Below are positions 1 to 8,714 of a stretch of 64,000 bases of DNA, piece by piece. Position 1 is the first letter of the stretch, and the number at the start of each line of letters is the position of its first letter. Below the pieces are notes generated by a model. The model was not told the DNA's origin, made no database searches, and saw only the letters and a list, made by a program, of their open reading frames with translations. The DNA lies in NCBI RefSeq assembly GCF_010550675.1, contig NZ_JAAGOA010000005.1, forward strand, positions 233,524-297,523. Reading direction: 5' to 3'. This DNA comes from Phytoactinopolyspora halotolerans (GTDB lineage Bacteria; Actinomycetota; Actinomycetes; Jiangellales; Jiangellaceae). Both the position numbers and the translations under genes were made by a program.

Positions 1-231
1 CAGGACCACGTCGGGCTGCATCGCCGCCACCAGCGTGACGGCGTGATCGCCGTCGCTGGCCTCACCCACGACGTCGATGTCCTCCTCGGCGCCGAGAATG
101 ACCCTGAACCCCGCCCGCACCAGATCCTGGTCGTCCGCGAGGAGGACCCGAATCGGAGCACCGTCGGGCCGGCCGACACGCTGGGGCCGGCTATCCCCGA
201 GTGCCGGCGGCTCGTCGCCTCGTATGGTCAT
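1..231 (-). CDS. NarL/LuxR-type response regulator, N-terminal part (cut by window edge)
   Basis: Only the first 77 codons lie in the window. After a polar leader of about 26 residues the receiver domain begins with IRVLLADDQDLVRAGFR, which holds the acidic pair of the phosphorylation pocket, followed by the typical VVGEASDG segment; the phospho-accepting Asp region (QPDVVL) is at the edge. This opening is characteristic of NarL-family regulators, whose C-terminal HTH would lie outside the window. The ATG at 231-229 overlaps the stop of the kinase gene (ATGA), so the two are translationally coupled. Role inferred: cytoplasmic transcription regulator phosphorylated by the kinase encoded just upstream. 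Confidence 0.9.
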   Translation of the reverse strand, partial: MTIRGDEPPALGDSRPQRVGRPDGAPIRVLLADDQDLVRAGFRVILGAEEDIDVVGEASDGDHAVTLVAAMQPDVVL

Positions 232-5105: not shown

Positions 5106-7472
5106 TCAGCGATCGTGGTCGTGTCCGTGGCCGTCGCGTGCCAGGCGGGAGAGGGCCGGCGGCAACGGGGCGACATGCAGCACGCCGAGCCGCCGGGTGG
5201 GACGCGTCAGCGCGACATAGAGGTCGGCATATCCCTGCGTCGAGGCGGCCAGCAGTTCGTCCGGGGTGACGACGACGGTCGCGTCGAACTCCAGCCCCTT
5301 GGCCTGTTCCGGGGTGATCACCGCAACCGGAGCGTCCAGCATGTCGAAGTCGCCGGCCGCCCGCGCCTCCGGCACCTCGGCTCGCACGGCGGCGAGGCAG
5401 CTGTCCAGCCGCGCTCGCGGAACGATGAAGGCCAGCGTGCCCTCGCCGATCGCGTCGCGTTCCCGCTTCACCACCGCGGGGAGCACATCCGGGAGATCAT
5501 CCTCGCTGACCCGCTGCGCCCACGGCACATCGCCGTCCGGGCGGACCGACCGTGGCGCCACCGCATCCGAACCTCCGGCGGCCAAGACATCGCCGGCCAC
5601 CGTCATGATCGGCTGCGGGGTCCGGTAGTTCACCGTGAGCCGGGCGCGCCGCCAGCTGCCGGGCGCGAGCCGGTCGAGGGCGTCCGCCCAGGAGTTCACC
5701 CCGTCCGGGGCGCCGGTCTGCGCGACGTCCCCGACGACGGTCATGGAGAGCGTGGGGCAGCGACGCGTGAGGATGCGCCACGCCATCGGCGACAGCTCCT
5801 GCGCCTCATCGACGATGACGTGTCCGTACTTCCACTCCCGGTTCCGACGGGCGCGCTCGGCGATCGACGCACGCCGGCCGGTGTCGTGATAGCGGGACAG
5901 CACGAGCGAGGCATCGACCGGCATCGCGACCTCCTCGTCGATCGCCATATCCATGGCCACGTCGTAGGCGTCGGTGATCATCTGACGCTCCTGCTCGGTC
6001 TGCTCGCTGCGTTCCGTCTCCGCGCGCGCCCGCGCATCCGCGGCTCGCGCCAGCACGACGTCCAGCTCACCCACCAGGGCCGCTGCCTCATCCAGCAACG
6101 GCACGTCGGCCACCGTCCACGCCGCCGGATCCGCACGGTGCAGGCAGTCCCGCTCGGCCTGAGTGAGCTGCGGGGCCACATCGGCGCGGAACCGCTCGTC
6201 CGTGTACAGCTCGGAGAGCAACCCTTCGGGCGTCAGTTCCGGCCAGAGGATGTCCAGGGCCTCGCGCACACCCGGCGACGACTTCAACTCCTGCCGCACG
6301 GCCGGCCGGTCGACCAGATCGACGAGCTCGCGATCGTCCTCGTCCTCGATCTCTTCCGGAATGTCCACACCGTCCAGCACCGCCTCGATCTTGCCCAGCG
6401 CCTGCTCGGTCAGCTCGTCCAGCACGTCGGCGACGACGTACTTGCGCATGCGGTTGTGCGGCTGCCGGGTGCGTTGGGCGCGCTCCCGGGCGTTGTCCCG
6501 GATCCGCCGACAGGTCGCATCGTCGAGGAAGTAGACGTCCCGGTCGGTGGTGACCCGCAGCCCGCCGATCGGCGCGCGTTCATTGCTCGCCACCGCTTGC
6601 GCCAGCACGTCGGCCATCCGCAGATCGCCCTTGACGATCGCCGTCGCCGGAGCGTCGACCCGCTCGGTCTCCACCCCCGGGTAGAGCCCGCCGACGGAGC
6701 TGAGCACGACGTCGGTCTCGCCCAGGCCGGGCAGCACCTGATCGATGTAGCGCAGGAATGTGGCGTTCGGGCCGACGACGAGCACACCGTTCGCCGCGAG
6801 CCGGCGCCGATACGTGTACAGCAGGTACGCCGCACGGTGCAGCGCCACCACGGTCTTGCCGGTTCCCGGCCCGCCCTCCACCACCAGGATGCCGTCGGGA
6901 TCGGACCGGATCACCCGGTCCTGCTCCGCCTGAATGGTGGCGACGATGTCCCCCATCCGGCCGGTACGGGCGGACTCCAGCGACGAGAGCAGCGCCGCCT
7001 CGCCGGTCAGGTGGCGGCGTTCGTCGTCGTCCAGGTTGTCGAGGGCCAGCACGTCGTCGTCGATGCGGACCACATCGCGGCCCCTGAGGTGGATGTGCCG
7101 CCGACGCCGGACACCCAGCCGCTCGGCGGACGTCGCCCGGTAGAACGGTGTCGCCGCGGGCGCGCGCCAATCGATCAGAAGCGGGTCGTAATCCTCGCTG
7201 TATATTCCGGCGCGCCCAATGTAGAGCGGTTCGTCCTCGCTGTCGATATCCAACCGGCCGATGACAAGACCGTGCTCGGCGGAGGCAAGCCGGGCGGCGC
7301 GCTCGGCGTAGTGGTTCACCGATGCGTCACGCTCGAACCGCCCTTGGTGTGTACTGCTCTGAGCAGGCTTGATGGCCCGGCTGAACTGCTCATCCACGCC
7401 TCCTCGGAGATCGTCGAAGCGCTCGTACAGGCGAGTGACATATTCTTGCTCGGCCGCTATCTCCGATTCCAC
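5106..7472 (-). CDS. helD: RNA polymerase recycling motor HelD (UvrD/Rep-like ATPase)
   Basis: 788 residues from the GTG at 7472. HelD removes stalled or nucleic-acid-bound RNA polymerase and, in actinobacteria, related proteins protect it from rifamycins. The N-terminal coiled coil (SEIAAEQEYVTRLYERFDDLR) is followed by the YIGRAGIYSEDYDPLLIDWRAPAA block typical of the family, Walker A in EGGPGTGKTVVALHRAAYLLY (about residue 197), VIVDEAQELSPMAWRIL (Walker B/motif II), VVGDVAQTG, and VYVALTRPTRRL at the C terminus, which ends in a His-rich tail. The GTG fits the family N terminus; upstream TTG codons at 7520 and 7604 would add residues unlike the family and would overlap the small RNA. Leader lies opposite that RNA. 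Confidence 0.9.
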   Translation of the reverse strand: MESEIAAEQEYVTRLYERFDDLRGGVDEQFSRAIKPAQSSTHQGRFERDASVNHYAERAARLASAEHGLVIGRLDIDSEDEPLYIGRAGIYSEDYDPLLIDWRAPAATPFYRATSAERLGVRRRRHIHLRGRDVVRIDDDVLALDNLDDDERRHLTGEAALLSSLESARTGRMGDIVATIQAEQDRVIRSDPDGILVVEGGPGTGKTVVALHRAAYLLYTYRRRLAANGVLVVGPNATFLRYIDQVLPGLGETDVVLSSVGGLYPGVETERVDAPATAIVKGDLRMADVLAQAVASNERAPIGGLRVTTDRDVYFLDDATCRRIRDNARERAQRTRQPHNRMRKYVVADVLDELTEQALGKIEAVLDGVDIPEEIEDEDDRELVDLVDRPAVRQELKSSPGVREALDILWPELTPEGLLSELYTDERFRADVAPQLTQAERDCLHRADPAAWTVADVPLLDEAAALVGELDVVLARAADARARAETERSEQTEQERQMITDAYDVAMDMAIDEEVAMPVDASLVLSRYHDTGRRASIAERARRNREWKYGHVIVDEAQELSPMAWRILTRRCPTLSMTVVGDVAQTGAPDGVNSWADALDRLAPGSWRRARLTVNYRTPQPIMTVAGDVLAAGGSDAVAPRSVRPDGDVPWAQRVSEDDLPDVLPAVVKRERDAIGEGTLAFIVPRARLDSCLAAVRAEVPEARAAGDFDMLDAPVAVITPEQAKGLEFDATVVVTPDELLAASTQGYADLYVALTRPTRRLGVLHVAPLPPALSRLARDGHGHDHDR

Positions 7473-7480
7473 GGCGTCGT

Positions 7481-7510
7481 TTGACGTGGCCTTTTTGGAT
7501 ATCGTATAAT
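7481..7510 (+). promoter_or_regulatory. Near-consensus housekeeping promoter on the plus strand
   Basis: TTGACG at 7481-7486, an 18-base spacer, then a perfect TATAAT at 7505-7510. No protein gene follows on this strand; an intrinsic terminator does, about 85 bases later. The local composition is far richer in A and T than the rest of the window. Confidence 0.65.
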
Positions 7511-7516
7511 CGGCAC

Positions 7517-7618
7517 GCAAGAGCGATATGTCCTTTCCAGAATTCCTGGCTACAAACAGTTCCCGAAGATAGCAAGAATTCGAGGACGGAAACAAGCCCG
7601 GCAATCGCCGGGCTTTTC
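7517..7618 (+). ncRNA. Candidate small RNA of about 100 nt opposite the helD leader
   Basis: Ends are set by the promoter at 7481-7510 (start expected near 7517) and by the hairpin plus T-rich tail at 7594-7620. The stretch has no open frame with a ribosome site on this strand. It is unusually A/T rich, holds two GAATTC motifs and a short possible stem around CCAGAATTCCTGG (7538-7550). It is antisense to the sequence just upstream of helD and lies between helD and the potassium channel gene. I do not recognise it as a known RNA family. The evidence is promoter plus terminator only; conservation and expression are untested. Confidence 0.5.
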
Positions 7619-7620
7619 TT
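7594..7620 (+). terminator. Intrinsic terminator (9-bp stem, AATC loop, T-rich tail)
   Basis: AAGCCCGGC (7594-7602), loop AATC, GCCGGGCTT (7607-7615), then TTCTT. The stem is perfect and the T tract follows on the plus strand, so it ends a plus-strand transcript. On the minus strand it lies directly after the potassium channel stop codon and may end that message as well. Confidence 0.75.
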
Positions 7621-8714
7621 CATTCGGCGGCATTTTGGATCAGCTGCCGCGACCCGTCCCGCGCCTGCACCGCCGCCACGACCTGATCGTCCGACAGCCG
7701 CGCGCGGCCGACGTAGTACACCACGGCGCCGGAGGGCAACCGCGTCTGCCAGGACGGACTGATCAGCAGCTGGCCGTCGATCCGCACCGCCAGCACAGTG
7801 ACGTCGTACCGTTGCCCGAGACCGGCCTGGCATGCACCGTACGTCACCGCGTCCAGCGTCTCGGGCAACCGCATCGAGTACGTGTTCCCGCCGCCGTAGG
7901 TCATCAGCTCGGCGTAGACCTGAGTGATGCCGGGGTCCTGCAACTCCTCGGTGGCCATCCGCGGCACATGCCACTGCACGCACCGGATCGATTCGCTCAC
8001 GTAGGTGAAGTGGTTCGCACGGCTGATGTCACGCAAGGTGACCACCACATGCGCCCGGGGGTTCACATGGTGCACGGACACCACCATCGCCAGAGCCTCG
8101 TTGTCGTCCCGGGCATCGACGAGAACGCTGTGCGCACGCTGCACACCGGCGCGCTGCAGAACGTCCGGATCGCTGAGGTCACCGCGGACGAACTCGATAT
8201 CCCGGTCGGGCAGCGGGTGTTGATCGACCTCGTCCCACGCGCACAACACGACTCGGCGGCCGCCTTCGCTCGGCAGACCGTGCAGAATCCGCTCGGTGCG
8301 TCCGGGCACGTAGCCCAGCACCACGACGTGATCGGACCTGTCCACGGTGAGGGCACCTTGCATACGACGTCCTTTCGCCTTCTCGACAACCCCGACGAGC
8401 TGAGTGATGAGCGTGGTGAGCGCGGTGATGGAGCCGATGATCACGTACACGCCGACGATATGGCCGCCGGCTGTCTCCGGGTAGAAATCCCCGTATCCCA
8501 CCGTCGAACCCGTGACGATGAACCACCACCAGTAGTTCTGCGGTTCGACGATGGCGCTCCCCGCCGGCTCCACCCAGGCCATCAACGGCCAGCTGGTCAG
8601 GAAAACGGAGACCATGACGGCGACCGCCGGCACACCGGTGCGCCATTTGACCAGGCGGCGCTTGAGACGGGTCAGAATGATCAGCACGTCGGTCCCCTCG
8701 ACAGCCACGTTCAC
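7620..8714 (-). CDS. Potassium channel with RCK/TrkA-N domain
   Basis: 364 residues. Two transmembrane helices (about 28-46 and 85-110) flank a pore loop with the potassium selectivity filter TVGYGD at 71-76. The C-terminal cytoplasmic part has a Rossmann-type TrkA-N fold starting VVVLGYVPGRTERIL and containing VRGDLSDPDVLQRAGV, which binds a nucleotide or ion to gate the channel. The GTG at 8714 is taken; a GTG at 8687 with GAGGGG before it is a plausible shorter start. It is divergent from the DUF4178-DUF350-spermidine synthase run. A linked ion channel in that neighbourhood agrees with the membrane character of the run. Confidence 0.9.
   Translation of the reverse strand: MNVAVEGTDVLIILTRLKRRLVKWRTGVPAVAVMVSVFLTSWPLMAWVEPAGSAIVEPQNYWWWFIVTGSTVGYGDFYPETAGGHIVGVYVIIGSITALTTLITQLVGVVEKAKGRRMQGALTVDRSDHVVVLGYVPGRTERILHGLPSEGGRRVVLCAWDEVDQHPLPDRDIEFVRGDLSDPDVLQRAGVQRAHSVLVDARDDNEALAMVVSVHHVNPRAHVVVTLRDISRANHFTYVSESIRCVQWHVPRMATEELQDPGITQVYAELMTYGGGNTYSMRLPETLDAVTYGACQAGLGQRYDVTVLAVRIDGQLLISPSWQTRLPSGAVVYYVGRARLSDDQVVAAVQARDGSRQLIQNAAE

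Follow-up and report, generated by a model that had tools for sequence, protein, structure and literature searches.

The helD gene of Phytoactinopolyspora halotolerans probably stands under two convergent promoters whose transcriptional interference is lifted when RNA polymerase becomes blocked. In the 64,000-nucleotide stretch of contig NZ_JAAGOA010000005.1 that we analysed (the window), two promoter-like sequences face each other across the start of this gene, whose product rescues RNA polymerase; the pair and its spacing are conserved in several actinobacterial families, and no rifamycin-associated element (RAE) was found near the gene. We refer to the window genome as G000, to the other four species of the genus as G001-G004, and to a member of a neighbouring genus of the same family, the Jiangellaceae (NCBI taxonomy), as G005.

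A Near-Consensus Antisense Promoter Sequence Lies over the helD Start

The first-pass annotation of this DNA described a small RNA candidate bounded by a promoter and a terminator in an A/T-rich stretch, and the promoter and hairpin sequences that it named are all present as described (Table 1). On the plus strand, TTGACG (7481-7486) is separated by 18 bp from TATAAT (7505-7510), a combination that matches the consensus at 11 of 12 positions, and 83 bases lie between this -10 box and a hairpin (7594-7615) of the sequence AAGCCCGGC-AATC-GCCGGGCTT, which is followed by the tail TTCTTCATTC. The A/T-richness was likewise borne out, since the G+C content of positions 7481-7620 is 48.6% versus 68.3% for the window; the fraction of 140-bp windows that are equally A/T-rich is 0.0003. 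The promoter had been assigned to the helD leader, but it actually lies within the first codons (4-14) of the gene. The most likely helD start, as read from the sequence, is the TTG at 7518-7520 of the minus strand, and a TTG was also read at the corresponding position in G001, G002 and G004; with this start, the antisense -10 box falls over codons 4-6 and the -35 box over codons 12-14. A plus-strand open reading frame (7481-7762) had no Pfam match.

Table 1. Coordinates of features around the helD start in the window.
Feature	Position	Strand	Remarks
Antisense -35, TTGACG	7481..7486	+	inside helD codons 12-14; TTGACG in G001/G002, TTGACA in G005
Antisense -10, TATAAT	7505..7510	+	inside helD codons 4-6; TATAAT in G001/G002/G004, TATATT in G005
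Predicted antisense RNA, ~100 nt	7517..7618	+	would run from the point facing the helD start codon as far as the hairpin; predicted from promoter and terminator
9-bp perfect hairpin	7594..7615	either	followed on the + strand by a T-rich tail (7616-7625) and on the - strand by GTTTCC
Sense helD -10, TATCTT	7566..7571	-	position shared by TATCTT in G000, TATTCT in G002 and TATCTT in G001
Sense helD -35, TTGTTT	7590..7595	-	overlaps the hairpin end; TTGTTT/TTGTTT/TTGTTC in G000/G002/G001
helD, 804 aa, TTG start, class II HelD	5106..7520	-	matches 6yxu chain H
helD 5' UTR	7521..7559	-	Shine-Dalgarno AAAGGA at 7531-7536; presumed transcription start 7 nt past the -10
Ion-channel/TrkA-N gene, upstream	7620..8714	-	transcript could end at the hairpin 7594-7615

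From base composition, TTGACN-16..18-TATAAT is expected about 0.003 times in 64 kb and about 0.3 times in the 7.3-Mb genome, which contains exactly one match, the helD site. The hairpin sequence with any 4-base loop is also found a single time in the genome, at 7594-7615. Over the first 16 kb, generic scans at looser thresholds returned small excesses of promoter-like (3 versus 1.2 expected) and terminator-like sequences (5 versus 4.0 expected), and the looser pattern TTGACN-16..18-TANNNT has 161 matches in G000 versus 61 for its reversed control.

The helD product matches the Mycobacterium smegmatis-type HelD (6yxu_H) along the protein (E 6e-153) and the other HelD type (6wvk_H) more weakly (E 7e-32), by which the protein is to be classed as a class II HelD; the NCBIfam HelR/HelD models match it with scores under their cut-offs. 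A search of viral contigs with the helD N-terminus recovered no relatives.

Judged by its sequence, the hairpin could act as an intrinsic terminator in either direction. One reading, compatible with the one that we prefer, makes it the plain terminator of the upstream channel gene, unrelated to the antisense promoter; we regard this as possible but lean against it. The stop codon of the channel gene directly precedes the hairpin, and the hairpin is absent in G001, where a different gene was read directly upstream of helD. However, the tail is more T-rich on the antisense strand both in G000 and in G002 (antisense-strand tail of the G002 counterpart, TTTGTTTG), the helD loci of a genus in another family (g24, see below) have a hairpin similarly positioned, and in Bacillus subtilis, too, the distal terminator of helD is thought likely to serve the upstream gene, a potential transporter, as well (PMC12802891).

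A Putative Weak Sense Promoter Faces the Antisense Promoter

On the minus strand, a candidate sense promoter is situated at an identical distance from helD in G000, G001 and G002, with an 18-bp spacer in each of them (Table 1). Its counterpart in G004 is TTGTTA-18-TATGGT and, by eye, TTGTTC-18-TATCGT in G003; in G005, a -10 box (TAAAGT or TACGAT) was read without a good -35 box. The sense promoter of the window matches the consensus at 7 of 12 positions, and by this measure it would be weak and the antisense promoter the stronger of the two. Between the two -10 boxes lie 55 bp in G000, G001 and G002 and 54 bp in G005, and the predicted start sites in the window are separated by about 43 bp. 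A sense -10 box (TANNNT) was present 40-58 bp from the antisense one at 7 of 10 loci and, in family f17 (see below), at 18 of 24, versus 31 of 1972 positions in the control; as these are mostly coding, the comparison understates the background of leader regions. The proposal that the antisense unit could set helD levels gains from its conservation, described below; the facing sense promoter had been overlooked when it was made.

Two further observations concern the leader. The sequence GAATTC occurs twice, once in the helD leader (7540-7545) and once in the spacer of the sense promoter (7576-7581); G001 has the motif in the matching positions and G002 has it in part, and it is possibly the operator of some regulator. 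Furthermore, visual inspection of G000 suggested a stem (GGACATATCG/CGATATCC) that pairs the helD Shine-Dalgarno sequence with codons past the start; it was discarded, as it is not kept in G001.

Conservation of the Promoter Pair within the Genus and Family

The first-pass annotation had tied its candidate to conservation of promoter and terminator in close relatives that keep helD, a comparison carried out here in part. The promoter is kept in two of the other four species of the genus: the pattern TTGACN19TATAAT occurs once each in G000, G001 and G002, always at the helD start, and has no match in G003 and G004. In slightly altered form (TTGACA-18-TATATT) it is present at the helD start of G005. 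G004 retains the TATAAT box but not the aligned -35 sequence (an alternative would be TTATCA-16-TATAAT), and in G003 (locus L006) the antisense promoter is absent and helD is seemingly leaderless; L006 offers a naturally occurring comparison in which the switch is missing. Across 22 genomes of the family, TTGACN-16..18-TATAWT yielded 14 matches, four of them at the helD site. A composite pattern for the convergent pair is found once per genome in three of the five genus genomes, only at helD, while its reversed control gave one match (in G000) over all five.

When the genes are aligned by codons, G000, G001 and G002 agree at all 12 promoter positions, while the 18-bp antisense spacer of G000 matches that of G001 at 8 of 18 positions. 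Six of 771 same-phase windows in helD keep the corresponding 12 positions, and the promoter window is the only one of them with a spacer so diverged.

Beyond the genus, an antisense TTGACN-17/18-TANNNT lies over the helD start in 8 of the 20 best-match loci of the family (L035-L038, which repeat G002, G003, G005 and G004, were counted once); the 12 negatives comprise ten loci of genus g3 together with G003 and G004. Genera g3 and g6, whose helD products share 51-53% identity with that of the window, contribute TTGACA-18-TANNNT at L007, L008, L009 and L017. The scan of paralogues covered the five related ones (L066-L070): TTGACA-18-TATTGT is present at L069 and L070, and the antisense pattern is absent from L066-L068. 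The helD genes at L069 and L070 apparently use the rare start codon ATT, located inside the palindrome ACTATTAACAATAGT, and the related L008 perhaps uses ATC.

The terminator fared less well. A counterpart exists in G002, but G001 and G005, which keep the promoter, have no terminator-like hairpin within 300 nt by our scan. These comparisons suggest that the conserved feature is the convergent promoter pair over the helD start and not the terminator.

The Promoter Pair Recurs in Other Actinobacterial Families

A helD match is present in 60 of the 61 genomes of family f17. Among the 30 best-scoring loci of these 60 genomes, 24 carry TTGAC(A/C/G)-17/18-TANNNT over the start; one more positive locus of the family (L147) stands outside this count. 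The pattern was found in none of 300 antisense windows deeper in helD, and neither the sense strand (0/30) nor the reversed pattern (0/30) gave a match. At the starts of other genes, an antisense match within a 210-bp window was seen in 1 of 332 cases (464 kb, from the window and G000, G001 and G002).

In a third family, represented by one genus (g24, probably Streptomyces), 20 of 20 helD loci (41 genomes, 21 without a match) have TTGACA-18-TAT(A/G)NT over the start. The sense -10 box (TATATT, once TATAGT) is 51-53 bp away in 18 of them and 64 and 66 bp away in the other two. A long hairpin lies roughly 60-77 nt past the antisense -10 in 18 of the 20 loci, and 10 of the 20 passed the T-tail criterion; terminator-like hairpins are present in these ten loci as in G000 and G002. 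In the g24 loci (L168-L186), a strongly conserved hairpin, typically AAATCCCCCG...CGGGGGATTT, is located just 5' of the sense -10 box in 18 of 20 cases. By reading, TTGACA-17/18-TANNNT is present at a helD-like start in Streptomyces angustmyceticus plasmid p1, Streptomyces sp. BHT-5-2 p1 and Embleya sp. NBC_00888, three records found by similarity to a g24 locus that contains this region and hence not independent of it; the sense -10 lies at 66 bp in S. angustmyceticus, and BHT-5-2 has none in the tested range. A fourth record contained neither the antisense site nor a recognisable helD start.

Many other families lack the pattern. Among 26 further loci, L027 (of family f17) was the sole positive; ten of them are L021-L030, of which L029 shows a weak TTGAAT-19-TAACAT, and no match was seen at the other 16, which belong to Amycolatopsis, Prauserella, Qaidamihabitans, Saccharopolyspora, Corynebacterium, Nocardioides and Actinomadura. 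A survey of the class, in which several loci without the anchor motif were scanned by position, gave positives in g24 (5 of 5 loci fetched), f18 (G174), f17 (G173) and f37 (1 of 2 loci), and the pattern was absent at the loci of f28, f9, f14, f13, f3, f4, f24, f32, f38, f22, f31 and f35. A match far upstream (-153) at L136 was not counted, and two duplicates (L134, the gene of L123, and L144, the gene of L028) were left out. Since the loci are related by descent, none of these counts represents independent trials. In every positive locus of the window's family, f17 and g24, the antisense spacer measures 17-18 bp.

Two Reading Frames of the -35 Hexamer Point to Selection on the DNA

We considered whether the promoter might be a mere by-product of constraints on the sense strand, that is, of an A/T-rich start region, the Shine-Dalgarno sequence and the N-terminal codons. 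Rare codons are preferred at the site of the -35 box. In the 30 loci of f17, glutamine is encoded by CAA in 31 of 43 N-terminal codons but in 18 of 605 elsewhere in these genes; in the 20 loci of the window's family, serine is encoded by TCA in 9 of 37 N-terminal codons versus 17 of 667. The TCA and CAA codons at the -35 site of positive loci follow from the motif itself, and away from this site CAA still accounts for 7 of 19 N-terminal glutamine codons in f17 (TCA for 1 of 29 serine codons in the window's family); the codon signal is therefore partly a general effect of the start region. The hexamer.GTCAA is read in the glutamine CAA frame at 24 of 24 sites in f17 and in the serine TCA frame at 8 of 8 sites in the window's family, which points to selection on the DNA, as one shared protein motif would not explain two frames.

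The by-product explanation draws on the A/T-richness of the region, on D-Y-T codons that yield TATAAT in G000, G001, G002 and G004, on the abutment of the antisense -10 and the Shine-Dalgarno sequence in many f17 loci, and on the off-site excess of CAA. Against it stand the single match among the 332 control starts, the two reading frames of the hexamer, the uniform antisense spacing and the narrow range of distances at which the sense -10 box is found, and we consider it very improbable.

Comparison with the B. subtilis helD System and with RAE Control

Experiments in B. subtilis have proven that a stronger antisense promoter, convergent with the weak, slow-escaping sense promoter of helD, silences the latter, and that sub-inhibitory rifampicin relieves this silencing; the dual-promoter alarm was also described at pps (PMC12802891, NAR 2026). 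Among the matches listed by a literature search for antisense or convergent promoters at helD, this was the only relevant report. The window shares with it two convergent promoter-like sequences, of which, judged from consensus, the sense one would be weak and the antisense one stronger, and the spacing of the -10 boxes, published as 45-55 bp and amounting to 55 bp in the window. The antisense RNA is about 90-94 nt long, with start sites 39 bp apart (PMC12802891), and about 100 nt is predicted here; in both cases the hairpin could be shared with the gene upstream, which in the window is the channel gene. In contrast, the B. subtilis protein is a class I HelD and that of the window class II, the antisense promoter of the window overlaps the coding start, and its spacer is 17-18 bp in the actinobacterial loci but 19 bp in B. 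subtilis.

The published search motif, TTGN3-N17,18-[AT]6-N45,55-[AT]6-N18,19-N3-CAA (PMC12802891), is missed by the window solely because of the C in the sense -10 box TATCTT; it is a search pattern and not a proven requirement. In its search of many genomes, the same report retained sites up to 300 bp upstream of a gene provided that they overlapped no other annotated region, a criterion under which antisense sites inside gene starts were probably dropped. It also states that convergent promoters are not universal among helD genes and that the actinobacterial ones carry an RAE (PMC12802891), while some genes of the HelR group are reported without a clear RAE (PMC8655204). Silencing of a weak promoter by a strong opposing one is furthermore known from phage 186 and icsA (PMC12802891); the case in the window differs in that the gene concerned encodes a protein with RNA polymerase itself as its target.

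Another alternative is control of the window's helD by an RAE, with the antisense promoter as an incidental feature. In Streptomyces venezuelae and M. abscessus, the induction of HelR is linked to the RAE (PMC10719064, PMC8655204). The gene shares with RAE-controlled HelR the protein superfamily and the presumed signal, rifamycins. The best match to the 19-bp palindromic RAE consensus near the window's helD (7401-7800) has 8 of 19 mismatches, and we consider RAE control of this gene most improbable. RAE-like palindromes do occur upstream of other helD paralogues, with two mismatches in G000 (L071, positions 192-210, contig C13) and three in G004 (L072, on the minus strand, upstream of its helD). 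With an RAE-like element at another paralogue and none found here, one genome may hold both systems, and G000 possibly possesses two helD genes with two rifamycin switches.

A Model for the Control of helD

Since its parts match those of the B. subtilis system, we infer transcriptional interference that is relieved by blockage of the polymerase. The helD mRNA would be made from the weak sense promoter (TTGTTT-18-TATCTT, minus strand), whereas polymerase starting at the near-consensus antisense promoter (TTGACG-18-TATAAT, plus strand) would run back across the leader and the sense promoter to the hairpin terminator. During normal growth, the stronger antisense promoter would hold helD low through interference. 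With polymerase stalled by rifamycins or other blocks at the much-used antisense promoter, interference would end and helD would be transcribed; the HelD protein then made would clear and protect the polymerase. Transcription from both promoters, their relative strength, the interference and the response to rifamycins are predicted.

The antisense RNA is predicted to start at about 7517, opposite the helD start codon, and, if made, would overlie the 5' UTR and the Shine-Dalgarno sequence of helD, so that base pairing with the ribosome-binding site may add to the repression. A stronger version of this idea holds that the transcript of about 100 nt is a base-pairing small RNA that blocks translation of helD or of other mRNAs. 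Promoter and terminator do bound a compact RNA, positions 7517-7620 fold with a z of -3.3 relative to shuffles, and the g24 hairpins suggest that a short antisense RNA may often arise. Nevertheless, Rfam gave no match within the window at the gathering score, the hairpin is equally usable by the upstream gene, and swapped-promoter constructs in B. subtilis show that it mattered in which order the promoters stood and how fast polymerase escaped from them (PMC12802891). A trans-acting RNA was demoted as the main reading because G001 and G005 keep the promoter without a terminator-like hairpin. We consider the base-pairing RNA unlikely: of the original proposal, the antisense unit is conserved, but a free RNA acting elsewhere is less probable than interference between the two promoters.

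Implications for Actinobacterial helD Genes

Actinomycetes include producers of rifamycins and often possess several helD genes. By analogy, these bacteria may sense polymerase-blocking antibiotics as B. subtilis does. The conserved promoter pair provides a sequence-level hypothesis for how helD genes that lack an RAE are switched on, testable in laboratory strains of Streptomyces, and with it the alarm known from B. subtilis would reach to HelD proteins of class II. It also suggests that searches restricted to intergenic DNA miss the alarm where the antisense promoter lies inside the gene. A wider proposition, on which we find the balance to be even, is that polymerase alarms built from convergent promoters at helD constitute a major, so far unrecognised, form of control in the actinobacteria (in the Streptomycetaceae, a second large family and the Jiangellaceae), with the antisense promoter in or over the start codons, and that this control serves the RAE-less paralogues, senses any block of the polymerase and is reset when HelD evicts the stalled enzyme. 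If true, the alarm, which Bacillus has at its class I helD, would be of great age or else have evolved twice.
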